Source: Planctomycetes bacterium RIFCSPLOWO2_12_38_17 (GTDB lineage: Bacteria; Planctomycetota; Brocadiia; Brocadiales; Brocadiaceae). From it: a DNA stretch of 44,745 bases. This document shows positions 279 to 22,633 of the stretch, in pieces. The stretch spans positions 1 through 44,745 of the forward strand of contig MHYY01000056.1 of NCBI GenBank assembly GCA_001830285.1, read 5' to 3'. The stretch's first letter is position 1. Every line of letters starts with the position of its first letter. The position numbers were made by a program, and so were the translations under genes. The notes beneath the pieces are model-generated. The model saw nothing but the letters and a program-made list of their open reading frames with translations. It did not search any database and was not told where the DNA came from.

Positions 279-2189
279 ATGACTGAAAAAACAAGACACG
301 AGGAAAGTTTTGAGTTTCAAGCGGAAATAAAAAAGTTACTAAATATACTGTCTCACTCCCTTTATACCCATAAAGAGGTCTTTTTAAGAGAACTCATTTC
401 AAACGCCTCGGATGCGCTAACCAAGATGCGCTTTCATGCCCTCTCCAATACGGAACATGATGATAAAGAATTATCCCTTGAAATAAATATAGATGTTGAC
501 GAGAAAAAAAAGACCCTGACCATCAGCGATACTGGCATTGGAATGACTAAAGACGAGATTATACAGAATATCGGGACAATTGCAAAGTCCGGTTCGCTTG
601 ATTTTATAGCAAAACTGTCAGAGCAGGCAAAGAAAGATTCCAATATTATAGGTCAATTCGGTGTTGGTTTTTATTCTGTCTTTATGGTGGCTGATGAGGT
701 CAGGATCAGGACGAAATCATATAAAAAGGACGAATCTGCAATTGAATGGCACTCGGACGGTACGGGAAAATATTTTTTGAATTCAACGGAAAAGGAAAAA
801 CGCGGGACGGAAATTATAGTCCACCTGAAAGAAGAGGAAAAAGAATATACCGATAAGTCCAGAATTCAGTCTATCATAAAAAAGTACTCCAATTTTGTAA
901 GCTTCCCTATCATGGTTTGCGGAGAAAGGGCAAATCAGATTACGGCTATCTGGAAAGAGCCAAAAAAGAATATCACCGAAGAACAATATAATGAATTCTA
1001 TAAATTCATTACAAACACGGAGGAAACGCCCCTTTTCCGTTTGCACACATCAGCAGAGGCGCCGATACAATTTTACAGCATTTTATACTGCCCATCCGCA
1101 AATTATGAAGTCTATGGTTTTAAAAAACTCGACCATGGAATTCAGGTTTACTCAAATAAAATACTGATACAATCAGACTGCACAACACTTTTACCAGAAT
1201 ATATGCGGTTCATCCGTGGCGTTGTTGACTCTTCAGATATCCCGCTAAACATATCAAGAGAAACGTTTCAGGATAACAGGATTATTCATAAAATAAAGAG
1301 CATCCTTGTTAAACAAACCCTATCTCTTTTACAGGACATGGCAAAAAATGAAAGGGAAAAGTATGAAACACTTTGGAGACAATTTGGAAGGATTCTAAAA
1401 GAGGGAATGCATTTCGATTCCGAAAATCGCGAAACATTAGCGCAATTGATGCGATTCAATTCTTCCAGGTGCCAGAATTTCGACGGACTGATTTCACTCA
1501 GGGAATACGCTGACAGAATGAAACCGGAACAAAAAGAGATTTATTACATAACGGCGGTGAACCGCGAAACAATAGAAAAAAGCCCGTATCTCGAGATATT
1601 TCGCAAGAAAGACGTGGAGGTACTGTATCTGACAGACCCCAATGATGAAATATTGCTTGCCGAACTTCAGGAATTTGAAAAGAAACCCATCCGTTCAGCC
1701 GACCAGGCAAATCTGGATTTACTCAAAGACGGCGAAAAGAAGATTGTAGATACCACAGAAGAACCTAAAGATTTTGAGGCAACGTTTAACCATCTCTTAA
1801 AGACCTTAAGGTTAACGCTTGCAGACAAGGTGACAGACGTCAAGGAATCGCAAAGATTGAGCGATAGCCCATGCTGTCTTGTAAACCCTGAAGGCATGCC
1901 CAGTGTGCACGTCCAAAAACTCATACAAATGATGCACAGCGATTATAAAATCGCCAAGAAAATAATGGAGATTAACAGGAAACACCGCTTGATACAGAAT
2001 CTCGCAAAGATGAACGAAAATACAGACTATCAACAACTAGTTGAAAAGATAGCCCTTCAGCTTTTTGAAAATGCGCTGATGCAGGATGGTATCGTCTCTG
2101 ACCCCACATCAATGGTACCAAGGTTGAATGAGATAATGGAGGAATTAACCAAGGCAACGTTGGGCGAGGGGAAGAGGATTATTATTTGA
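279..2189 (+). CDS. htpG: molecular chaperone HtpG (Hsp90 family)
   Basis: Cytosolic ATP-dependent chaperone of the Hsp90 family, 636 aa, normal length. The N-terminal GHKL ATPase motifs are visible: ELISNASDAL, DTGIGMTKDE and GQFGVGFYSVFM, followed by the middle domain (SSDIPLNISRE) and a C-terminal dimerisation region. The start at 279 is chosen because a strong GCAGGAGGAAC ribosome-binding site precedes this ATG; the frame is open back to 201 but that extension is not Hsp90-like. It appears monocistronic. The last 137 bp, encoding the C-terminal tail ending GEGKRIII, occur again at 4116-4252, so the 3' end of this gene appears to be an integration or duplication point. Confidence 0.97.
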   Translation: MTEKTRHEESFEFQAEIKKLLNILSHSLYTHKEVFLRELISNASDALTKMRFHALSNTEHDDKELSLEINIDVDEKKKTLTISDTGIGMTKDEIIQNIGTIAKSGSLDFIAKLSEQAKKDSNIIGQFGVGFYSVFMVADEVRIRTKSYKKDESAIEWHSDGTGKYFLNSTEKEKRGTEIIVHLKEEEKEYTDKSRIQSIIKKYSNFVSFPIMVCGERANQITAIWKEPKKNITEEQYNEFYKFITNTEETPLFRLHTSAEAPIQFYSILYCPSANYEVYGFKKLDHGIQVYSNKILIQSDCTTLLPEYMRFIRGVVDSSDIPLNISRETFQDNRIIHKIKSILVKQTLSLLQDMAKNEREKYETLWRQFGRILKEGMHFDSENRETLAQLMRFNSSRCQNFDGLISLREYADRMKPEQKEIYYITAVNRETIEKSPYLEIFRKKDVEVLYLTDPNDEILLAELQEFEKKPIRSADQANLDLLKDGEKKIVDTTEEPKDFEATFNHLLKTLRLTLADKVTDVKESQRLSDSPCCLVNPEGMPSVHVQKLIQMMHSDYKIAKKIMEINRKHRLIQNLAKMNENTDYQQLVEKIALQLFENALMQDGIVSDPTSMVPRLNEIMEELTKATLGEGKRIII

Positions 2190-2693
2190 TGCTTAGGGGT
2201 TGAGAAATGGAACAGGGGCAAACCTTCGTCATTCAATATTCAACAATTAATTGTTTATTAATACTACAATTCCTATATTCTTCGCATTACTCATTATTTT
2301 TGGTCTGACATATCCCCATTTACATGAGGACAAGGTTCTTCTGCATTCTGTAATTGAAATATGAAGGTCTGATTATAGACTCTTCTCTCCTTTTCACTTC
2401 ACCGACAATATATTTTATATCGCCCCCTGAACGCCTTACCATATATCAATCTGCGGTGTCTGACTCCACAGATTCTGTAAGGGAATTTAACAATCTCAAT
2501 CCTCTACGTCCATTTTTTACCCATGCGGTATTTTATGTCGTAATTTATACCTGTCCTGCGCTAAGCCGAAGGGATGAAGTCTAATTCCTCATCGGTGAAA
2601 CCGTAATGCTGGGCTAATACCTTGTCTACTGTGCTTTAGTCCCCATTAACAAAGGGGGAAATAGAGGGTTGTCAGTCTTCATCCGGTATTTAT

Positions 2694-2713
2694 AAGGCTT
2701 TGAGTATTAAACC
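2694..2713 (+). repeat. dispersed 20-mer, copy 1
   Basis: Contains GTATTTATAAGGCTTT at 2696-2711, identical over 16 nt to 16679-16694 and differing at one base from 22698-22713. The other two copies lie just downstream of genes in the 10-kb element, one of them next to the integrase, so it may be a recombination core carried by related elements. Confidence 0.5.
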
Positions 2714-2751
2714 GACTTTCTATATTCAAACACTCAAACAGCAAGATTAAA

Positions 2752-2772
2752 GACCTGCCCCCCGTTGTTTTC
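2752..2772 (+). repeat. left copy of a 21-bp perfect inverted repeat
   Basis: The sequence beginning CAAGATTAAAGACCTG and ending in a run of C is the exact reverse complement of 5434-5454. Similar short sequences often flank REP-associated (IS200/IS605-like) tyrosine transposase genes, but no transposase remains here; that link is inference. Confidence 0.6.
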
Positions 2773-2956
2773 CCGATTGTTCTGTCAACAAGCATCTAAT
2801 ATGGAAAGATAAGATACTGAAAGTAAGCGATATTAAGCTTAATCACAACTCGATGATTAGTAGTTGTTTGTTCCATGTTGCTCTGATAAAAAGTCTTTTA
2901 AAAGTCTTTTAAAAATCTAATAATTTCAAGGCGGTTAAAAGACTTATTAGACATTC

Positions 2957-3289
2957 CTATTTCCGAATAATTTTAATTACAGATTCAATAACAACTTCAA
3001 GCTTTCTAATTTTAAGTTTACCAACACTATATAACACAATATGACTGTCGGCTGTAAATATACGATTAGGCCTTAAATTACTTGGTTGTTTCAAACCTCC
3101 ATTCTCAAAGTCATCATCAGTAAGTAAAATAGCGTATTTGTCTTTAATCGTCTGGCTGGTTATCTGGCAAAGAATCAAATCGTCTCCTTCCAATACCGAA
3201 AGAACAAGTGCAGGACGTCTCTTTGCCTGAGTCAAATCAGAAAACGGAAAAGGAACAACAACGACATCACCTTTTACAAATTTTGCCAT
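2957..3289 (-). CDS. MazF/PemK-family toxin (mRNA interferase)
   Basis: 110 aa. The MazF/PemK/CcdB-fold N-terminus is recognisable: GDVVVVPFPFSDLTQAKRRP followed by ALVLS, and later the conserved Q-I-T-S-Q segment and the SNLRPNRIFT region that carries the basic catalytic surface. Family members are ribosome-independent endoribonucleases that halt growth when their antitoxin is degraded. The start overlaps the end of the upstream gene 3274-3468 by 16 bp, the usual antitoxin-then-toxin arrangement with translational coupling. The pair lies between two copies of the htpG 3' end, so it is probably cargo of an inserted segment. Confidence 0.85.
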   Translation of the reverse strand: MAKFVKGDVVVVPFPFSDLTQAKRRPALVLSVLEGDDLILCQITSQTIKDKYAILLTDDDFENGGLKQPSNLRPNRIFTADSHIVLYSVGKLKIRKLEVVIESVIKIIRK

Positions 3290-3468
3290 GACTCATCTTC
3301 CTCGGATTTTAACCAATCTTTTTTGAGAGACGACTCGCTGGCAATGGCATTAGCAATGCTTTCTTTCATTCTTTTTGTTTTAAGAAAATGAACAAAATCC
3401 AGTACCTCATCAAGGAAAAGTTCTGGAACATGTTCAATCTCACTCATAAGTAACTCTTTTTTACTCAT
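3274..3468 (-). CDS. antitoxin partner of the MazF-like toxin
   Basis: 64 aa, acidic C-terminus. The segment PELFLDEVLDFVHFLKTKR resembles the amphipathic helix of DUF2281-type antitoxins found upstream of PemK/MazF toxins; the C-terminal part (KSEEDESWQNL) would wrap the toxin. A purine-rich GGAGGTAAAAAT ribosome-binding site precedes the start. No DNA-binding fold is obvious in the short N-terminus, so autoregulation cannot be judged. Assignment rests largely on position and on the helix motif. Confidence 0.7.
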   Translation of the reverse strand: MSKKELLMSEIEHVPELFLDEVLDFVHFLKTKRMKESIANAIASESSLKKDWLKSEEDESWQNL

Positions 3469-3556
3469 ATTTTTACCTCCAAATTAGGATAGGTCATAGA
3501 GTTTTTAATCATGACATCTGGTTGCTTCTCCAGTGCATAAATAAAGGACTATGTTT

Positions 3557-3832
3557 TTAATTTTTATCATCTGTTTTTTTAATCTTGTTTATTTTTTCCT
3601 GAAGGGACACGATACCTTCTACAGTGTGTTCCCACTCCATTGCGTCTTTTTCAACTTCCCATGAAAAGCCCTTTTCCTCCACCACATTCTTTTTTTCAAA
3701 CTCGGAAAAACTCATTCCGTACTTTTTTTTGAATCGCTCATCAGTAAATTTATGCAAAACAATTTTCCGTTCATATTCATTAAGAACGGCTTCTTTTAGT
3801 TCTTTTTTGGAAATAAGATCAAGCAGTTTCAT
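3557..3832 (-). CDS. orphan antitoxin-like protein
   Basis: 91 aa, highly charged and helical. It shows the pattern of small antitoxins with F-K-K-K-Y-G-M-S-F-S-E-F-E near the middle followed by WEVEKDAMEWEHTVEGI, which I associate with antitoxins of solitary or TumE-like toxin pairs. GGAGGTGATTTTAA precedes the start codon, a strong ribosome-binding site. No toxin gene is adjacent on the same strand; the MazF pair downstream is separated by about 90 bp and has its own antitoxin. It could therefore be a solitary antidote or a relic of a second pair. Function is inferred only from family resemblance. Confidence 0.55.
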   Translation of the reverse strand: MKLLDLISKKELKEAVLNEYERKIVLHKFTDERFKKKYGMSFSEFEKKNVVEEKGFSWEVEKDAMEWEHTVEGIVSLQEKINKIKKTDDKN

Positions 3833-4115
3833 TTAAAATCACCTCCATTCACACATTAAACATTAAAGAAAATATATAAAAAAAGGTATAAGGAGCTTAG
3901 CTAAGAATCAGACTTTTCATCACAATTTTAATCTCTTCCTCAGCTTATCCATAGAGTTTGTAGCTATTTCATCAATTTGGAGTTCAATCTCCTTAATCTC
4001 GGTTTATTTAGCCTTATTTTATAATATTCATTATATTTGATAATGGCAAGGATTTTATCGTGTCACTATGCAAAATTTCTTTTTCATACAGCCCTGTTTT
4101 GAGTCATGCTGGTTA

Positions 4116-4252
4116 AGCGCTTCAGCTTTACGAAAATGCGCTGATGCAGGATGGTATCGTCTCTGACCCTACATCAATGGTACCAAGGCTGAATGAGATA
4201 ATGGAGGAATTAACCAAGGCAACGTTGGGCGAGGGGAAGAGGATTATTATTT
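4116..4252 (+). pseudogene. second copy of the htpG 3' end
   Basis: 137 bp matching 2051-2187 with five mismatches. Read in the htpG frame the differences are GCC>GCG, TTT>TAC (Phe to Tyr), CCC>CCT and TTG>CTG, so three of four changed codons are silent and one is conservative; the copy ends ...GKRIII with TAG instead of TGA. That pattern suggests the copy diverged while part of a functional htpG in another lineage rather than drifting here. It would be the far attachment site of an element that integrates into the 3' end of htpG. The stretch 3833-4115 between it and the orphan antitoxin has no gene. Confidence 0.85.
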
Positions 4253-4398
4253 AGAGTTAAGGGAATAATATCTGGAAATATACAGAATTGCAGAAGTAGC
4301 TTCTGTAGGTTGGATGGAGCGAAGCGCACCAAACAAAATAAATGGAGATGGGTCTACGGGCGCTTGACCCCTCCTACGTGTGCTCCCTCCAATGACTT

Positions 4399-4405
4399 GT
4401 TAGGC
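4399..4405 (-). other. attC core remnant at the 3' end of the cassette gene
   Basis: On the minus strand this is GCCTAAC, the R'' half-site typical of integron attC sites; the TAA stop codon of the nuclease gene (4400-4402) lies inside it, as is common for cassettes. No matching downstream half-site (GTTRRRY) could be found in 4253-4398, so this attC seems truncated. Confidence 0.55.
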
Positions 4406-5323
4406 ATTTTTAAAAGTCTGTACAATCACATGTATTTCGCCAGTATCTGCAAGTTTATGAAACGCTAAGCCAAGCTTACTCTTTCCAACGTTTAGTCTAA
4501 ATCCTACCGTTTTTGATATTTCTTCTTCGCCCGAATCTCGGCTGTATTGAATAATTTTTTCAATAGGTACTTTTTCAGTCTTTATTGATAAATATGACTC
4601 AAAATAAATCTCTTTTATTCGAACATTCCCCTCAGGAGTATTAATAATAAAATGACTTTTTTCATTACTGTATTCTGCCCTAATTTTAATCTCTTTAGTA
4701 TCTATGTCTGGTCTTATGTCATCAAATAACTCAGAATGTTCAGATAGAAGCAATGAAAATGCATCTATTATACGAGCTGATTGTCCTGTTTCTGTTGAAA
4801 TTAGAATAAAGTCGTTACCCCGGCTTTTAATAATATCCTGAACAGCATGTTTTTTCGCGGATGGTTCTTTTGAATCAATTATCAATAAAGCCTTACTCAT
4901 ATTACCATGACGATTAAATATAGGTATGTGGGAGAGTAAAAACCAATCCGAGATTTCGTCGAAAGTAATTTCTTTTACTGTGCGGAGTTCAATTCCAGAT
5001 TCATCTGCAAATTGTTTTACTCCATTTGCAAAGCCGGTTGTTGATACAGCAGTTACCTTATTAAATCCAAAACGATTACGTCGACCAACAAGTTGTTCAA
5101 TCCATGAGCCAGGAGCGGGACCATCAGATGGTCTATCTCTACACTCTATTAACCATTTAATGTCTGTTGAGCCAAGTCTTCCCTCAATTTCAATATCGAA
5201 TTCTGCAATCTGAACTCCTTCTTTAAATATCCTTTCGTTCGACTTTACTTGGAAATTATTTGGCAAAAGTAGTTTTTCAATTTGCTTTACTATCTGTTCT
5301 AATTGTTTACCCGTTTTTGTCAT
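4400..5323 (-). CDS. cassette-borne PD-(D/E)XK-type nuclease
   Basis: 307 aa. The N-terminal third looks like a restriction-endonuclease (Mrr-like) core: strand FDIEI with Asp43, then WLIECRDRP with Glu60-Cys-Arg62, then a helix WIEQLVGRRNRFGFNKV and strand TAVSTTGFANGVKQFA, the D...(E)xK layout with Arg in place of the usual Lys. The C-terminal two thirds are not recognised. The gene has the architecture of an integron cassette: its ATG is 18 nt downstream of a complete attC hairpin (5342-5410), and its stop codon lies in another attC core at 4399-4405. No integrase of the IntI type is in the window. It might be a defensive restriction-like enzyme, but its substrate is unknown. Confidence 0.7.
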   Translation of the reverse strand: MTKTGKQLEQIVKQIEKLLLPNNFQVKSNERIFKEGVQIAEFDIEIEGRLGSTDIKWLIECRDRPSDGPAPGSWIEQLVGRRNRFGFNKVTAVSTTGFANGVKQFADESGIELRTVKEITFDEISDWFLLSHIPIFNRHGNMSKALLIIDSKEPSAKKHAVQDIIKSRGNDFILISTETGQSARIIDAFSLLLSEHSELFDDIRPDIDTKEIKIRAEYSNEKSHFIINTPEGNVRIKEIYFESYLSIKTEKVPIEKIIQYSRDSGEEEISKTVGFRLNVGKSKLGLAFHKLADTGEIHVIVQTFKNA

Positions 5324-5341
5324 GTTTAATTTGCGCTTAAT

Positions 5342-5410
5342 GCCTAACGACTCGGCGGTGACAGGAGCGCCAGCCGTATTGGCGCGTCCGAGTCCAACAG
5401 CCTTGTTAGC
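5342..5410 (-). other. integron attC recombination site
   Basis: In the minus direction the site begins GCTAAC (R'') and ends GTTAGGC (R'), the RYYYAAC...GTTRRRY layout. In plus coordinates GCCTAAC is 5342-5348 and GTTAGC is 5405-5410. Between them GACTCGG (5349-5355) pairs with CCGAGTC (5388-5394), and GCGCCA (5367-5372) pairs with TGGCGC (5380-5385). About 69 bp long, within the attC size range. It marks the upstream boundary of the nuclease cassette. Confidence 0.8.
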
Positions 5411-5433
5411 AGGCGTTTTGATGTGCTATAAAT

Positions 5434-5454
5434 GGGGGCAGGTCTTTAATCTTG
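5434..5454 (-). repeat. right copy of the 21-bp inverted repeat
   Basis: Exact reverse complement of 2752-2772 (reads GGGGGCAGGTCTTTAATCTT in plus plus one base). It is followed by a hairpin in which AATCTTG (5448-5454) can pair with the nearby CAAGATT, a REP-like arrangement. Confidence 0.6.
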
Positions 5455-13250: not shown

Positions 13251-13574
13251 ATGGACATACTATCTAATCTTAATGGCTTTGACTGGGATGAGGGTAATAT
13301 TATCAAGAATTGGGAAAAGCATGGTGTTGCTCATGTTGAGTGTGAGGAAGTATTCTTTAATGAGCCTTTGGTTGTAAAGAAAGATGATCCCCATTCTAAA
13401 ACTGAGACACGTTATTATGTGCTTGGCAGGACAAACAGTAATAGATTGTTATTTCTGGTGTTTGCTATAAGGGGTAATAGGATAAGGGTTATATCTGCAA
13501 GGGATATGAATATGAAGGAGAGGGAAATATATGAGCAAGTTGAAAGAGATACCGAGATTCAAGACAGAGGATGA
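13251..13574 (+). CDS. brnT: BrnT-family toxin
   Basis: 107 aa. BrnT toxins are RelE-fold ribonucleases that inhibit translation. The family pattern is clear: FDWDEGNIIKNWEKHGV at the N-terminus, then AHVECEEVFFNEPLVV, RYYVLGRTNSNRLLFLVFAIR and RVISARDMNMKEREIYE near the end. The gene comes first, toxin before antitoxin, as usual for brnTA, and overlaps brnA by 44 bp. The ribosome-binding site is poor, which may keep toxin translation low. The upstream palindrome at 13217-13235 suggests autorepression. First gene of the integrated element. Confidence 0.9.
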   Translation: MDILSNLNGFDWDEGNIIKNWEKHGVAHVECEEVFFNEPLVVKKDDPHSKTETRYYVLGRTNSNRLLFLVFAIRGNRIRVISARDMNMKEREIYEQVERDTEIQDRG

Positions 13575-17025: not shown

Positions 17026-17158
17026 AGTTTTATGCCTTCCAAGAACAATAAAAAAATATTTACGGGATTATAGAAACAAAATTGTTGTTTTGCCTTTCAG
17101 CAAAGAAAGGTCGAATTTGGTTGATTGCATTACCTTTATTTTGGAATCGAAGCCATGA
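17015..17158 (+). CDS. small basic protein of unknown function
   Basis: 47 aa from the ATG at 17015, starting inside the end of the preceding gene and ending in an ATGA overlap with the primase gene; this tight packing is the main evidence that it is real. The sequence begins MKIKVLCLPRTIKKYLRDYR and is rich in Lys and Arg. A TTG at 16961 would extend it but overlaps the neighbour more. No family recognised; it may help replication or regulation. Confidence 0.45.
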   Translation: MKIKVLCLPRTIKKYLRDYRNKIVVLPFSKERSNLVDCITFILESKP

Positions 17159-19035
17159 ATAAAGAACAAATCATGTTTAGGCTTAACAAAGAAGACTTTT
17201 ACAAAAACCTTGTACCTTCTTTAAAGGTCAACGGAAAGCCAGAAGCATTGGGGCTTTGTCCCTTCCATGACGACCACAATCCAAGCCTATCCGTGAACCT
17301 CGAAACAGGCTTATTCAGGTGTTTTTCATGTGGTGCGAAGGGGGATATATTCAATTTCTATATGCGATATAAAGACACAGGCTTTTCGACAGCTTTACAG
17401 GAAATAGGGAAAATGGCTGGGGTTGTCGAGCCGGATACAAAGCCCAAGGTTGTGGCTACCTTTAAATACACAGACGAAGCGGGGAATTTGCTTTACATCA
17501 AGGAAAGGTTGGAGCCGGGACGTAATGGACGGTTAAAGGAATTTGTTTTCAAGCAAATGGAGAGTAACAGGTGGGTGTTAGGGCGTGGGTGCGATCCTGT
17601 CCTTTATAACTTACCAGAGCTTATCAAGTCTAAATACGCTTTCGTTGTGGAAGGCGAAGGTAAAGCAGATTTATTGAACAAGTGGGGTTTTGTGGCTACA
17701 TGCCTTGATAATGGGGCTAATTCACCTATAAAAGACGAATACATTCAAATTCTTGGAAGCATGGAAAAAGTGGTTATCCTTCAAGACAATGACATACCGG
17801 GCAAGAATTACGCTTATAAGATTGCTAATTTACTTCATGGCAAGGTTAAAGAATTAAAAGTTGTCGAACTTCCTGGACTCAAAGAAGCTGGGGATGTAAT
17901 TGACTGGGTGAAAGCGGGTAATGATAAATCCAAACTGATTGAACTGGTTAAAAATACTCCTATATGGACACCTGCAGAATGTGACAAACACCGTTCAACA
18001 ATGATGTTGACACGCCTGGACAGCCTTTTTCAAGAACCAGAAGAAAAGACAGCGTGGCTGGTTGATGGGTTACTACCTTCTGGTGGCTTTTCTGTAATGG
18101 TGGCAAAACCAAAAGTAGGAAAATCCACAAATGCCAGAACTCTGGCTTTGCATATTGCAAACGGTAAATCATTTCTTGGCAGGGCGGTTGTAACGGGCGC
18201 AGTAATATATTTAGCATTGGAAGATAAAAGAGCAGAAATAAAAAGACATTTTAAGGATATGGGAGCAGCAGGAAATGAGGCGGTTTTTATTTATACTGGT
18301 GGAACTCCAGTTGATGCAATTAAGCAGATTAGAGAAGCTGTGGAACTTTTAAAGCCTGCCCTTGTCATCATTGAGCCATTATTCCGTTTGGCTAAAGTCA
18401 GAGATGGGAATGATTATGTTCAAGTCACAAATGCGTTAGACCCTTTATTGCGTATAGCCAGGGAATTAAAAACCCATGTGCTATGTATTCACCATTCATC
18501 CAAAGGGCATCGTGACGGTGGCGATTCTGTGTTAGGCAGCCAGGCAATCTTTGGAAGCGTAGATACTCTTTTGATTATGAAACGCCATGAGAGTTACAGA
18601 ACAATTCAAACCATTCAACGGTACGGGGAGGACATGGAAGAAACCATACTGAATTATGATAAGAATACTAGAACTGTAACGATTGGTAATACCAGAGAAG
18701 TTGAAAACCTAGCCAGGGTTAGACAAGATATTTTGACTTTCCTGGGGTCGCAAAACGAACCCGCTACCGAACCGCTAATTGTAAAAGAGACAGAAGGTAA
18801 CACCGCATTAAAACGGAAAGCAATAAGAGAATTGGTATCATCGGGAGAGGTGAAAAGGGACGGAAAAGGGGGGCGGGGAGACCCGTTTAGATATTCTCGT
18901 ATTCTCGTACCAGACATATATGTAAAACAAGAATACGAGAATCCAAAACAGACTGAAAACCCGCACGGTTGTGAGCCGTATTCTCGTACCGAAGATTTTG
19001 ACAATTTTTCAAAAGATGGAAAGTTGCCGGTATGA
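17155..19035 (+). CDS. CHC2-type primase fused to a RepA/RecA-like helicase ATPase
   Basis: 626 aa replication protein. The N-terminus has a CHC2 primase zinc finger with Cys35, His38, Cys56 and Cys59 (LCPFHDDHNPSLSV...FRCFSCGAKGDIFNF). A Toprim-like region follows (FVVEGEGKADLL, then VVILQDNDIPGK). The C-terminal half is a RepA/AAA_25-type ATPase: Walker A AKPKVGKST near residue 320, Walker B LVIIEPLF near 402, and VLCIHHSSKGHRDGGDSVLGS. Such fusions start or drive replication of plasmids, satellites and phages. The start is chosen at 17155 for its ATGA overlap with the preceding gene. The C-terminal tail contains a Tyr/Ser/Arg-rich low-complexity stretch. Its presence implies that the element can replicate outside the chromosome. 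Confidence 0.85.
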   Translation: MNKEQIMFRLNKEDFYKNLVPSLKVNGKPEALGLCPFHDDHNPSLSVNLETGLFRCFSCGAKGDIFNFYMRYKDTGFSTALQEIGKMAGVVEPDTKPKVVATFKYTDEAGNLLYIKERLEPGRNGRLKEFVFKQMESNRWVLGRGCDPVLYNLPELIKSKYAFVVEGEGKADLLNKWGFVATCLDNGANSPIKDEYIQILGSMEKVVILQDNDIPGKNYAYKIANLLHGKVKELKVVELPGLKEAGDVIDWVKAGNDKSKLIELVKNTPIWTPAECDKHRSTMMLTRLDSLFQEPEEKTAWLVDGLLPSGGFSVMVAKPKVGKSTNARTLALHIANGKSFLGRAVVTGAVIYLALEDKRAEIKRHFKDMGAAGNEAVFIYTGGTPVDAIKQIREAVELLKPALVIIEPLFRLAKVRDGNDYVQVTNALDPLLRIARELKTHVLCIHHSSKGHRDGGDSVLGSQAIFGSVDTLLIMKRHESYRTIQTIQRYGEDMEETILNYDKNTRTVTIGNTREVENLARVRQDILTFLGSQNEPATEPLIVKETEGNTALKRKAIRELVSSGEVKRDGKGGRGDPFRYSRILVPDIYVKQEYENPKQTENPHGCEPYSRTEDFDNFSKDGKLPV

Positions 19036-19063
19036 GAATCTTTGCAAAAAAACAGGGGAAAAA

Positions 19064-19128
19064 ATGAACAAAAAAAATTGGTTTTAGACGTACCTTTTGA
19101 GGTCGAAAGCATAGAGGTTGAAGCATGA
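19064..19128 (+). other. possible mini-gene over an A8 slippery tract
   Basis: ATG at 19064 reads only 7 codons before TAG, but a -1 slip on the A8 run (19070-19077; AAAAAAT heptamer) enters a frame encoding LVLDVPFEVESIEVEA that ends in an ATGA overlap with the next gene. A TTG start at 19078 would give the same frame. Protein-like composition and the overlap are suggestive only. Confidence 0.2.
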
Positions 19129-19421
19129 CATTACGATATGAGGTAATTGAAAGTTTTTCTGTCAAAACTCCAGAGGGAACGAAAGAGCTAGAAAAGGGAC
19201 AAATTATAAAACTATCCGAACAATCAGCAGGGCAATTAATAAAAGCAGGGAAAATAAAAACTTTGCCATACCTGGACAATGGCATTCTTAGAATACCTTT
19301 TGATTCACCACAAAAATTTCACTGGTGGGGTCGTGGTCGAGATATCAGCGACACATTGCGGGAGCTTGGGGCTTCCGATGAAATTATGAGAAAATACAAA
19401 TCACCATATAGCGATAATTAA
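19125..19421 (+). CDS. small phage/mobile-element protein, unknown
   Basis: 98 aa. The first part (KTPEGTKELEKGQIIKLSEQ, then SAGQLIKAGKI) looks like a small beta barrel followed by a helix, and the second part contains RIPFDSPQKFHWWGRGRDI and SDTLRELGAS, a pattern that recurs in small proteins beside primases in mobile elements as far as I recall. No catalytic residues. It sits between the primase-helicase gene and an excisionase-type HTH gene. Confidence 0.6.
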   Translation: MTLRYEVIESFSVKTPEGTKELEKGQIIKLSEQSAGQLIKAGKIKTLPYLDNGILRIPFDSPQKFHWWGRGRDISDTLRELGASDEIMRKYKSPYSDN

Positions 19422-19446
19422 CATTTTATTGCAGGAGTTAAAAAGA

Positions 19447-19659
19447 ATGGATGAAAAAGTTTTGAAATTCAATGAAAGTGTCGGGCTTTTAACACCAAAG
19501 CAAGCGGCGGAATATTTACAAGTGAAACTGAGTACAATTTATAATTGGAGCGCAAGGCGGATACTGCCAATTTGTAAGTGTGGTCGTCTTAACAGGTATA
19601 GAAAAAGTGATTTGGATAATTTTATCAATAAGAATATGACTGAGGTACAAAGACCGTGA
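19447..19659 (+). CDS. excisionase-type helix-turn-helix protein (HTH_17/MerR-like)
   Basis: 70 aa from the ATG with AGGAG nine bases upstream. GLLTPKQAAEYLQVKLSTIY followed by NWSARRILPICKCGRLNRYR is the small winged-helix signature of DNA-binding domains in excisionases and transposon regulators: recognition helix, then a wing ending R-Y-R-K-S-D-L. It probably bends DNA at att sites to help the integrase at 21458, or regulates the element. Its stop overlaps the next gene's GTG start. Confidence 0.82.
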   Translation: MDEKVLKFNESVGLLTPKQAAEYLQVKLSTIYNWSARRILPICKCGRLNRYRKSDLDNFINKNMTEVQRP

Positions 19660-19991
19660 ATATAACTCCGTCAAAGGCTATCAAACTGGAATGCAAGTGG
19701 TGCATGGGGAGCGTTAGAAGTTTTAAATGTGATAGTCAGATTTGCAAATTGAATAACAAGTCTTTAACACCATTGAAGCGTATAAAACTACACTGTCTTG
19801 ATTGTGTCGAAACAAGACAAGAAATTAAAGATTGCACAGGGAGATTACTCTTAGAGGATAGGCTTTGCTATTTGCATCCATACCGATTTGGACATAATCC
19901 AAAAAGAAAAGGTATCGGGAATCGTTTAGGCAATCCTAAATTTTTACAAAAAACACGAACTCACGATATGGTTTTCGCGTCTGGAAATTGA
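19656..19991 (+). CDS. cysteine-rich phage-type protein
   Basis: 111 aa from a GTG start overlapping the upstream stop (GTGA). Two Cys clusters are visible: LECKWCMGSVRSFKC with DSQIC, and LHCLDCVETRQEIKDC followed by LCYLHPYRFGHNPKRKG. The CLDC...C...C-x-L-x-PYRFGxNP pattern is familiar from small phage-encoded zinc-binding proteins of unknown function. A nucleic-acid-binding role is plausible. Confidence 0.65.
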   Translation: MNITPSKAIKLECKWCMGSVRSFKCDSQICKLNNKSLTPLKRIKLHCLDCVETRQEIKDCTGRLLLEDRLCYLHPYRFGHNPKRKGIGNRLGNPKFLQKTRTHDMVFASGN

Positions 19992-20033
19992 CTTGAGCAT
20001 ATTGAAAGAGGTTTTATATATAGAGGGTAAATA

Positions 20034-20861
20034 ATGCTATTGAAAAGCGGTATTAATAGGGTAGGTGGGAAAGCCTATTTGTCTCAATGGCTTTGCAGTT
20101 TTCTTCCAGAGCATACTCTTTATTGTGAACCGTTTGCGGGCGGTGCAAAGCTATTCTTTTCAAAAGAACCTTCACAGGTTGAAATTTTAAATGATATAGA
20201 TAATAATTTGGTCAATCTTTATAAAGTAATCCAAAATAATCAAAAGAGAGAAGAATTAATCGAAACACTTAATGAGATACCATATAGCAGGAGTGTTTTT
20301 AACCATTTCAGGAAGTCGGAACCACAGGATGAGATTGAGAAAGCCGTTAGGTATTTCTATTTGTCTAAGGCTTCTTTTGCCGGTGATGTTAGTTATGGCG
20401 GTTTTGGGACTCCCTCGCGGTCAACGACACGGAATCCATCAATGACTTATCAAAACAGTATTAATGCCCTAGAGCATATCGCAAAAAGGCTAAAAGTGGT
20501 GACTATTGAATGCCTTGATTTTAGGGACTGCATTTCAAAATATGATTCGGATTCTAGTTTGTTCTTTGTTGATGCGCCATACCTTTATTGTCGGTCTAAG
20601 CGTTATTATGGTCAACGCTTTACTTATGAAGACCATTTAGAACTTTCTAATATGCTTCATTCAGCTAAGGCGAAAGTAATGTTTTGTCATTATGAAAATC
20701 CTGAAATAAACAAGTTGTATGGTGACTGGAATAAATACACTTATCGGAGCTTTAAGGGTAGTCATAAATCAACAGGTGAATCGAAGCCTAAAACTCAAGA
20801 ATGCTTATTCGTGAATTTTTTACCTGTTAAAACACAGGGGTTGTTCAATGGGGCTGTTTAG
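20034..20861 (+). CDS. D12-class DNA adenine N6-methyltransferase
   Basis: 275 aa. Dam-like (D12, alpha-class) enzyme that would methylate adenine in a short duplex site using S-adenosylmethionine. SAM-binding elements are NRVGGKAYL (residues 8-16) and EPFAGGAKLFF (residues 32-42); the catalytic motif is FFVDAPYLY around residue 182, so the usual DPPY is DAPY. No restriction gene is adjacent, so it is probably an orphan methyltransferase protecting the element or timing its replication. GAGGG precedes the ATG. Whether Ala at the second position keeps activity cannot be decided from sequence, although the rest of the core is intact. Confidence 0.85.
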   Translation: MLLKSGINRVGGKAYLSQWLCSFLPEHTLYCEPFAGGAKLFFSKEPSQVEILNDIDNNLVNLYKVIQNNQKREELIETLNEIPYSRSVFNHFRKSEPQDEIEKAVRYFYLSKASFAGDVSYGGFGTPSRSTTRNPSMTYQNSINALEHIAKRLKVVTIECLDFRDCISKYDSDSSLFFVDAPYLYCRSKRYYGQRFTYEDHLELSNMLHSAKAKVMFCHYENPEINKLYGDWNKYTYRSFKGSHKSTGESKPKTQECLFVNFLPVKTQGLFNGAV

Positions 20862-20988
20862 TATGCTTCTGGCTGTGATAAGGCCATAAAGTAAGGGTTT
20901 TAAAAAGATGTAACAAAATGAAGCAAAAATATTCAATAATGCGCTTAAAACATGCAAAAACACATGAAATTTGAGGAAAAAGATTAAC

Positions 20989-21240
20989 ATGAAAACTAAA
21001 CATAAGATTAACGGAAACTGTAAGAATCGCAAGAAAGGCATTAATTTAAAAAAAATTTGGTATTATCGTCAGCTTGGCTTGTCTTACGCTGAAATTGGGG
21101 GAGTATGCAATTGCAGTAAGCAGTCAGCTTGGACGAGACTAAAGAAATTTCAGAGAAATAAGATTTTATATGACGAACTTAGTCAGAAATGGATGAGGGA
21201 AATCCTTGAAAAATCATCATCTACCCGCCGGTTGCCTTAA
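20989..21240 (+). CDS. small helix-turn-helix protein
   Basis: 83 aa from the ATG with GAGGA upstream. The middle reads KKIWYYRQLGLSYAEIGGVC followed by NCSKQSAWTRLKKF, a sigma-region-4/resolvase-type helix-turn-helix in which G-L-S-Y-A-E-I-G forms the first helix and turn. The N-terminus is very basic. It is probably a regulator of the element; it lies just upstream of the integrase leader. Confidence 0.6.
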   Translation: MKTKHKINGNCKNRKKGINLKKIWYYRQLGLSYAEIGGVCNCSKQSAWTRLKKFQRNKILYDELSQKWMREILEKSSSTRRLP

Positions 21241-21389
21241 ACCTTATGGAAATTTCTAAAGAAAAAAAGAAATGATAAAAACAAATAAAAATACACTTGC
21301 AATAATCGGAATCGTACGGTAATAGTACGTAGAATAAGGCATTGGACGGAATGCAAACAAAACATGCCTGTTTATTCAGGCAAATAAGA

Positions 21390-21449
21390 GGCAGTGGCTA
21401 GGTGTGCCGTCCTACACTTGGTTAACTGCCTTTTTTATTGGAAGGACGG
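21390..21449 (+). promoter_or_regulatory. hairpin-T6 leader 4 of the integrase gene
   Basis: GGCAGTGGCTAGGTGT (21390-21405) pairs with ACACTTGGTTAACTGCC (21414-21430), all positions paired with five G-U wobbles and one bulged A; TTTTTT follows at 21431-21436. The loop carries CCGTCC (21407-21412), complementary to GGACGG at 21444-21449 in the integrase ribosome-binding region and to another GGACGG upstream (21344-21349). Confidence 0.75.
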
Positions 21450-21457
21450 TGTTATAT

Positions 21458-22633
21458 ATGGCGGTGCGATTTAGGAAATATTTCCCGCAATGTAGAGGCA
21501 AAAGAACCAAAGGGGATAGATACGACAGGGTAATTGTAAAAGGTGTTGAATGCGAAGGCAAGCGGAGTAAACACTGTCCCCAGGGCTTACCTATGCCTTG
21601 CGGGGTGTGGGCAATAGATTTCAGGCATCCAGACGGTCGGTGGGTTTCAAAGGTATATCCAGAAATCAGGAATAGGACGGAAGCGGAGCATTTCCTATCA
21701 ATCATCAAAACGGATATACTCAGGAACAAGTTTAATCTGCCTGGTGAAGGAGCGATTCCTACATTAAAGGAGTATTCAAGGCGTTACCTGGAATTACACA
21801 GGGGAGCGAAAGAGAACACATTGGCGATGAAACAGAGGGGTATAAATGCGTTAATAGCTGTTTTAGGTGATCGCTCATTGAATAAGATAACACCATTTAT
21901 CATTGAAAAGTACAGGATTGAACGTAAAGAGAAAGATAGTGTCCAGGATAGCAGCATCAATATTGATATTTCTATCCTGTCACACATTTACAACGTTGCC
22001 ATTAAGGCGGGTATTATTGAAAAAAATCCATGTAAAGACGTTAAGCCATTTAAAATAACACAGACCAGAGACCGGGTATTATCTCAGCCAGAAATCGCTT
22101 TGTTGCTTGGTAAACTGAATGGGAAAGACCGTCTTATGGTATTGGTGGGACTCTTTACAGGGTTACGTTTAGGCGGGGTTTTAGGCTTATCGTGGTATGA
22201 TATAGACTTCACCAAAAAGATAATATCATCCAGCCATAAGACAGGCAAGCTGGTATCTATACCGGTATCAGACTATTTGTCTAAGGAACTGCTAAAGTGG
22301 AAAGAAAATAATTCAGGTGACATGGTATTTGAGACCAGAAAAATAACAAATACCGTCGTTGTGTATTATAGTGAACATTTCAGCAAGCTGTTTAAGGACT
22401 TAGGCATTCACAATTTCACCTTTCATAATCTGAGACATACATTTGCTAGTTTGCTTCAAGGTGAACTTAATGTCGGTGCCGTAGTGGTGCAGGGCATGAC
22501 TGGACATTCAAGCTTGAGCATGTTGCAGAAATATTCACATACAGGACTGGATAACAAACAGAAAGCCATAAAGTCATTAACAGAGTATGTCCTGAGTAAG
22601 AGACCTGAGACCACTTTAGCCATAGCACAATAA
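21458..22633 (+). CDS. tyrosine recombinase / phage-type integrase
   Basis: 391 aa from the ATG at 21458, preceded by GGAAGGACGG; the frame is open upstream only through the hairpin. Catalytic residues are in place: Arg in FTGLRLGGVLGL (about residue 236), Lys in SSHKTGK (about 260), HNLRHTF (His and Arg, about 323-327), His in GMTGHSS (about 348) and the nucleophile Tyr in LQKYSHT (about 357). The usual acidic residue three positions after the first Arg is Gly. An N-terminal arm region with a Cys/His-containing segment (CEGKRSKHCPQGLPMPC) precedes the SAM-like core-binding domain. It ends 104 bp from the right direct repeat and should integrate and, with the HTH protein, excise the element. 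Confidence 0.93.
   Translation: MAVRFRKYFPQCRGKRTKGDRYDRVIVKGVECEGKRSKHCPQGLPMPCGVWAIDFRHPDGRWVSKVYPEIRNRTEAEHFLSIIKTDILRNKFNLPGEGAIPTLKEYSRRYLELHRGAKENTLAMKQRGINALIAVLGDRSLNKITPFIIEKYRIERKEKDSVQDSSINIDISILSHIYNVAIKAGIIEKNPCKDVKPFKITQTRDRVLSQPEIALLLGKLNGKDRLMVLVGLFTGLRLGGVLGLSWYDIDFTKKIISSSHKTGKLVSIPVSDYLSKELLKWKENNSGDMVFETRKITNTVVVYYSEHFSKLFKDLGIHNFTFHNLRHTFASLLQGELNVGAVVVQGMTGHSSLSMLQKYSHTGLDNKQKAIKSLTEYVLSKRPETTLAIAQ

Follow-up and report, generated by a model that had tools for sequence, protein, structure and literature searches.

Insertion with long target duplication has reportedly been described for restriction-modification (RM) systems by Nobusato et al. in 2000 and Furuta et al. in 2010. 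Islands at gene 3' ends restore the 3' end and displace the native tail of the gene. The locus considered here is htpG of Planctomycetes bacterium RIFCSPLOWO2_12_38_17, located on a contig of 44,745 nucleotides (MHYY01000056.1) which was analyzed at its full length and is referred to as the window. The 3' end of this gene (copy 1) is repeated downstream (copy 2), and toxin-antitoxin (TA) type genes lie between the two copies. The repeat probably marks a recombinase-free insertion of a TA segment at the htpG 3' end, and the insert is best explained as a variant of the insertion with long target duplication known for RM systems.

Insertion with "long and variable target duplications" is attributed to RM systems in papers that cite the original studies (PMC3031569, PMC3154945; also PMC4978471). 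As presented there, such insertions resemble the present locus in combining an addiction-type module with a long, variable direct target duplication and no transposase, and in the single copy held by insert-free relatives (here of the htpG tail and of the ubiB-xerD junction, written ubiB|xerD). They differ in that the cargo is here composed of TA-type genes and not of an RM system, that the tails keep the host genes intact, and that the differences between copies, being mostly silent, may point to a donor tail more than to a duplicated target. Circularised fragments with one end of lacZ were integrated in E. coli through a single crossover that depended on RecA, and partial duplications of 109-950 bp resulted (PMC3240628). 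Single crossover of this type and homology-facilitated illegitimate recombination (HFIR) share with our locus one homologous end, one illegitimate end and partial gene-end duplications, whereas those were laboratory events with selected markers and the present ones are natural, recurrent and associated with TA cargo. A related HFIR model was used to explain arrays of the Vibrio type VI secretion system (T6SS), in which stranded or shifted effector 3' ends and immunity genes result from sequential effector displacement (PMC5361080). There, too, a homology-anchored incoming module pushes the old gene end downstream, and the serial arrays may be compared with a triple RM gene tail found in our genome; in Vibrio the gene that provides the anchor belongs to the cargo system, whereas here it is an unrelated housekeeping gene. 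Tyrosine-recombinase islands at gene 3' ends are alike in the restored 3' end and the displaced native end, and unlike in that the structures described here have no recombinase, no common core site and, in most cases, a cargo of less than 2 kb. No paper on TA modules bounded by stranded housekeeping-gene tails was found among the open-licence literature.

The two copies are identical at 132 of 137 positions (3.6% difference; blastn E=4e-59), their starts are 2065 bp apart, and they form the only sizeable direct repeat within the window. The five mismatches (copy 1/copy 2: 2054 C/G, 2065-2066 TT/AC, 2105 C/T, 2124 T/C) affect four codons, of which those for Ala, Pro and Leu are changed silently and the fourth replaces Phe by Tyr. 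These values, as well as the presence of about 1.9 kb with TA genes and no integrase between the copies, agree with a preliminary description of the locus, the antitoxin being a weak candidate. Block 2125-2187 is identical between the copies, and divergence starts at the stop codon, which is TGA for copy 1 and TAG for copy 2, position 4252 being the first T of the latter. The htpG tail is single in 28 of the 28 other Brocadiaceae genomes with a match, and is present in two copies in the genome under study. A chance or dispersed repeat was ruled out, as the genome holds two copies only, and so was a tandem duplication, as the sequence from 4253 is unrelated to the sequence from 2190. No tRNA or Rfam feature was found as the target.

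Table 1. Features of the htpG locus in the window (positions of the window) and sister inserts in the same genome; the names proA, hsdM, ubiB and xerD are our reading of the translations
Feature	Position	Strand	Basis or content
htpG (HSP90 family), intact, no stops	279..2189	+	HtpG of Brocadiaceae 78-83% identical in amino acids (aa); copy 1 makes up the final 137 bases ahead of the stop
Copy 1 of htpG 3' end, in frame with htpG	2051..2187	+	stop TGA and following bases unlike relatives
Inserted DNA, 1.93 kb	2188..4115		mosaic of pieces occurring elsewhere in Brocadiaceae genomes
MazF/PemK-like toxin	2957..3289	-	Pfam PF02452, E=5.4e-9, 36.7 bits against a cut-off of 23.1
Antitoxin candidate, DUF2281/VapB-like, 64 aa	3274..3468	-	PF10047 E=1.7e-4 and NF050009 E=1e-3, both below curated cut-offs
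91-aa open reading frame (ORF) without family	3557..3832	-	about 87-90% DNA matches in contig C98 of the same genome, G008 and G014
Copy 2, stranded htpG tail without start	4116..4252	+	sequence match to copy 1
Native htpG downstream sequence after copy 2	4253..4269	+	comparison with seven relatives
Sister insert, proA tail			DUF4258 and DUF2283
Sister inserts, type IIG RM gene tail three times in series	L211 5578-7156 (G000:C61)		nucleotidyltransferase (NTase) and HepT between tails 1 and 2; DUF4258-like gene and DUF2283 between tails 2 and 3
Sister insert, hsdM tail, just before hsdS			TumE
Sister insert, ubiB end/xerD start, 198 bp			DUF6036/AbiEii-like nucleotidyltransferase
Sister insert, intergenic target			BrnT
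Sister insert, intergenic target			DUF433/DUF5615
Sister insert, intergenic target			RHH protein beside PDC-S70-like protein
Sister insert, L194			DUF4258; touches a run of N, less secure case

The native end of htpG was identified by comparison with relatives. In several of them htpG ends in TAG, followed by roughly (A/T)GTTACGAGAATAATTTT, while copy 2 continues TAG AGTTAAGGGAATAATATC and copy 1 continues TGA TGCTTAGGGGTTGAG. Over the 25 bases after the stop codon, 12-14 positions match copy 2 in seven relatives (shuffle p 0.002-0.02 each, the seven values not being independent), and 7-10 positions match copy 1 (p above 0.1). Because the post-stop bases of the relatives resemble those of copy 2, this copy was found by the alignment to retain the native downstream junction, and the DNA following copy 1 to be inserted. 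The alignment had been proposed in the preliminary description, and its outcome supports the claim made there of a DNA insertion at the 3' end of htpG that supplied a replacement 3' end. Since the insert is genuine, a simple local duplication without additional DNA is refuted.

Parts of the insert match other Brocadiaceae genomes at 78-97%. The ORF of the antitoxin candidate overlaps the start of the toxin gene; this pair may be functional, and retention of the inserts may have been favoured by their TA genes. Neither an integrase nor a recombinase was found between 2188 and 4115, and likewise none in the sister inserts scanned.

The structure probably arose as follows. Incoming DNA from a close relative, arranged as an htpG tail followed by downstream DNA with a MazF-type TA module, would have undergone a single homologous (RecA-type) crossover in the htpG tail, most likely within the identical block. 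The other end would have been closed by end-joining, either through a circularised fragment (single crossover) or directly (HFIR). The crossover would restore htpG to full length with the stop codon and downstream DNA of the donor, while the native tail, together with the native sequence downstream of it, would be stranded behind the insert, both copies becoming hybrids. Of the two junctions one is homologous and one is not: the left transition lies within shared htpG sequence, and the right junction at 4115/4116 has no evident shared bases. At the five differing bases, copy 1 has the ancestral Phe and CCC and copy 2 the ancestral CTG; this mixture fits, without proving it, two hybrids from one crossover within 2125-2187. 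The identity of the two copies to the relatives is a tie and uninformative for ancestry.

Among 79 htpG loci of other species one further tail repeat was identified, in Methylomonas sp. SURF-1 (L077; 107 bp at 90%), which encloses BrnT (BrnT/BrnA) and a CopG-type antitoxin. The stranded copy and its terminator resemble those of M. koyamae SM2 (L080), and the last bases of the SURF-1 htpG, together with about 125 bp of downstream DNA including a terminator, resemble M. koyamae R-45383 (L082), the genes for BrnT and the CopG antitoxin coming next. Because the gene end and its downstream DNA are L082-like and the stranded tail is L080-like, the htpG tail end of SURF-1 is assigned, with its ordinary downstream DNA, to another lineage. 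A repeat downstream of an Ignavibacteriae htpG (L062) proved to be a duplicated terminator and not a tail. At another locus (L050 8585-10252), a 97-bp repeat reads like the 3' end of an integron integrase (intI-like) with attI-like bases, and is thus related, but not htpG. It surrounds a 326-aa DUF4365-type protein matching the PADLOC model for Aga-type restriction endonucleases, and is preceded by a HicB/HicA-like pair, next to htpG.

The insert at proA was compared in several Brocadiaceae genomes. A repeat of the proA tail occurs in G008 too (145 bp at 83%), around DUF2283, and in G015 the proA repeat is 416 bp long, 98% identical, and surrounds 3.4 kb. In G018 and G047, DUF2283 lies directly behind proA and a second tail is absent within the DNA examined. 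The right junction, from DUF2283 to the stranded proA tail, is shared by our genome and G008. Between our genome and G018 the body of proA is 75% identical and the DUF2283 gene, which is of antitoxin type, 94.5%, and because of this difference the comparison indicates that the module was transferred between genera into the same site. Identity of the proA tail was dropped as a sign of transfer, since this tail is conserved in all relatives and the DUF2283 gene alone is informative. The ubiB|xerD junction is contiguous (empty) in G005, G006, G010 and G012, and occupied by other DNA in G018, G021, G022 and G023.

The search for repeat-bounded inserts covered 0.91 Mb of our genome (80 other contigs and the window) and required direct repeats 45 bp or longer, with an identity of 78% or more and a spacing of 0.2-4 kb; internal protein repeats were set aside (those of L155, L162, L163 and L227 were removed from the count). 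Thirteen inserts bounded by unique direct repeats remain, the L211 array counting as two, and they comprise 14.3 kb or 1.6% of the scanned sequence. The repeats of the sister cases measure 61-202 bp, compared with 137 bp at htpG. TA-type genes are held by 10 of the 13, htpG/MazF included. Random placement, assuming 15-60 TA loci, gave a mean of 0.17-0.68 TA inserts and a maximum of 5 of 13 in 20,000 trials, the TA loci outside the inserts having been counted by phmmer with the insert proteins, which biases the count toward families seen inside. The triple tail at L211 is interpreted as a serial insertion array. No common motif was apparent by inspection in twelve junction pairs, and no recombinase was found in these structures. 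When the same scan was applied as a control to 0.73 Mb from non-Brocadiaceae htpG loci, only L077 and one duplicated terminator were returned. These results suggest that TA modules enter chromosomes by ordinary recombination without an integrase of their own.

The window is contig C56 of a metagenome-assembled genome which is 85% complete and whose closest HtpG relatives are anammox Brocadiaceae. A further contig of the bin, C147 (L031, G000:C147, 1-459), ends in a second htpG start and is 97% identical to positions 1-460 of the window over 460 bp; this overlap at the window start is taken as a sign that the bin mixes strains, and C147 probably adjoins the window contig on its upstream side. 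Three more contig-end overlaps were identified at 94.6-98.5% identity (1.5-5.4% difference), and the bin accordingly appears as a mixture of close strains. The 3.6% difference between the htpG copies falls within this range, which supports the view that they differ like two alleles. The preliminary description had derived copy 2 from another htpG allele; the allelic distance stands, while the stop codon and the following bases of copy 2 are native, and both copies would be hybrids under a single crossover in 2125-2187.

A local duplication, in which the host's own htpG tail was duplicated by a break-repair or template-switch event that also captured DNA, and the copies drifted later, is the strongest of the alternatives, although we regard it as unlikely. 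It corresponds to the usual depiction of insertion with long target duplication, the 416-bp repeat of G015 is still 98% identical, and the left parts of the Methylomonas copies share lineage-specific bases. The differences between copies are mostly silent, however: in the pooled coding repeats silent codon differences number 47 and replacing ones 26, compared with 20-29% silent expected from random change; this pool takes in one case at a 5' end, Methylomonas, and two L211 comparisons that overlap. The proA copies, with a silent to replacing ratio of 10:1, are 90% identical and no closer to each other than to other genera, and hsdM is the exception (2:4). In addition, in Methylomonas both the end of the gene tail and the DNA downstream of it are those of another lineage.

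An assembly artefact, with a wrong join at 4115/4116 between two strains of the bin that differ by about 3%, is considered improbable. The contig overlaps of the bin and the run of N touched by L194 are in its favour, but the window has no N, a strain bubble does not explain the junction itself, and the same architecture occurs in other assemblies (the same proA junction in G008, proA in G015 and htpG in Methylomonas SURF-1). It is very unlikely that the insert is the remnant of an integrase-bearing island which used the htpG 3' end as attachment site and lost its recombinase, as the preliminary description had proposed: the restored 3' end with a displaced native tail is the known outcome of island integration and the copies are hybrid-compatible, but no recombinase was seen in the insert and no shared motif by inspection of twelve junction pairs, a partial search for integrases with an htpG 3' end, covering phage and plasmid collections, gave no htpG tail match, the target differs at every locus, and the foreign stretch in Methylomonas includes ordinary downstream DNA of another lineage.

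Several observations weigh against recombinase-free insertion from a donor. No genome was found with the donor arrangement of htpG followed by this insert, and in all pieces examined from other Brocadiaceae genomes htpG was absent next to insert-like pieces. The junction at 4116 was not seen in a second assembly, the exact search covering viral contigs only. Over the 137 bp the copies cannot be sorted into donor and recipient, as the ancestral states are mixed. With regard to the circular form of the incoming DNA, the left part of SURF-1 copy 2 is recipient-like, so that end-joining to the recipient fits better than a circle. Two complete Brocadiaceae genomes (0.4 Mb each) have few such pairs and no clear TA case, and because of this the high insert density is established for our genome, not for the family.

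Stranded gene tails bear on the question of how small TA modules that lack a mobile element of their own enter chromosomes. Such tails, among them the one attributed here to recombinase-free insertion, leave a simple mark whose occurrences can be tallied in any genome, about ten modules having been found here in less than 1 Mb, and they offer a model, open to testing, in which one-sided homologous recombination takes place beside conserved genes. A more far-reaching possibility, put forward tentatively and with some doubt, is that TA modules of Brocadiaceae spread as homology-addressed cassettes whose flanking gene tails serve as portable homology arms. If so, host recombination alone could take a module out and place it after the same housekeeping gene of another species, restoring that gene, and such modules would form a class of integrase-free mobile unit addressed by a conserved gene end.

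Additional features were observed in and around the locus. In a complete Brocadiaceae genome (L026/L030; G009:C1 1674004-1675880), numerous stops and frameshifts disrupt htpG. Window positions 4375-5415 (minus strand), which come directly after the stranded tail, may represent an integron-type cassette without integrase: they include a 307-aa ORF whose Mrr_cat match is below threshold, an attC-like hairpin (GCCTAAC...GTTAGC, 5340-5410) and, near 4401, a GTTAGGC site. A perfect 21-bp inverted pair (CAAGATTAAAGACCTGCCCCC), possibly similar to repetitive extragenic palindromes (REP-like), flanks the stranded tail at 2742-2762 and 5434-5454. A second BrnT-like gene of the window (13251-13574) has no flanking repeats. 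Based on sequence alone, an island-like stretch at 17125-22633 encodes a primase/helicase-like protein, a Dam-like methylase and a tyrosine-recombinase-like protein (21404-22633).

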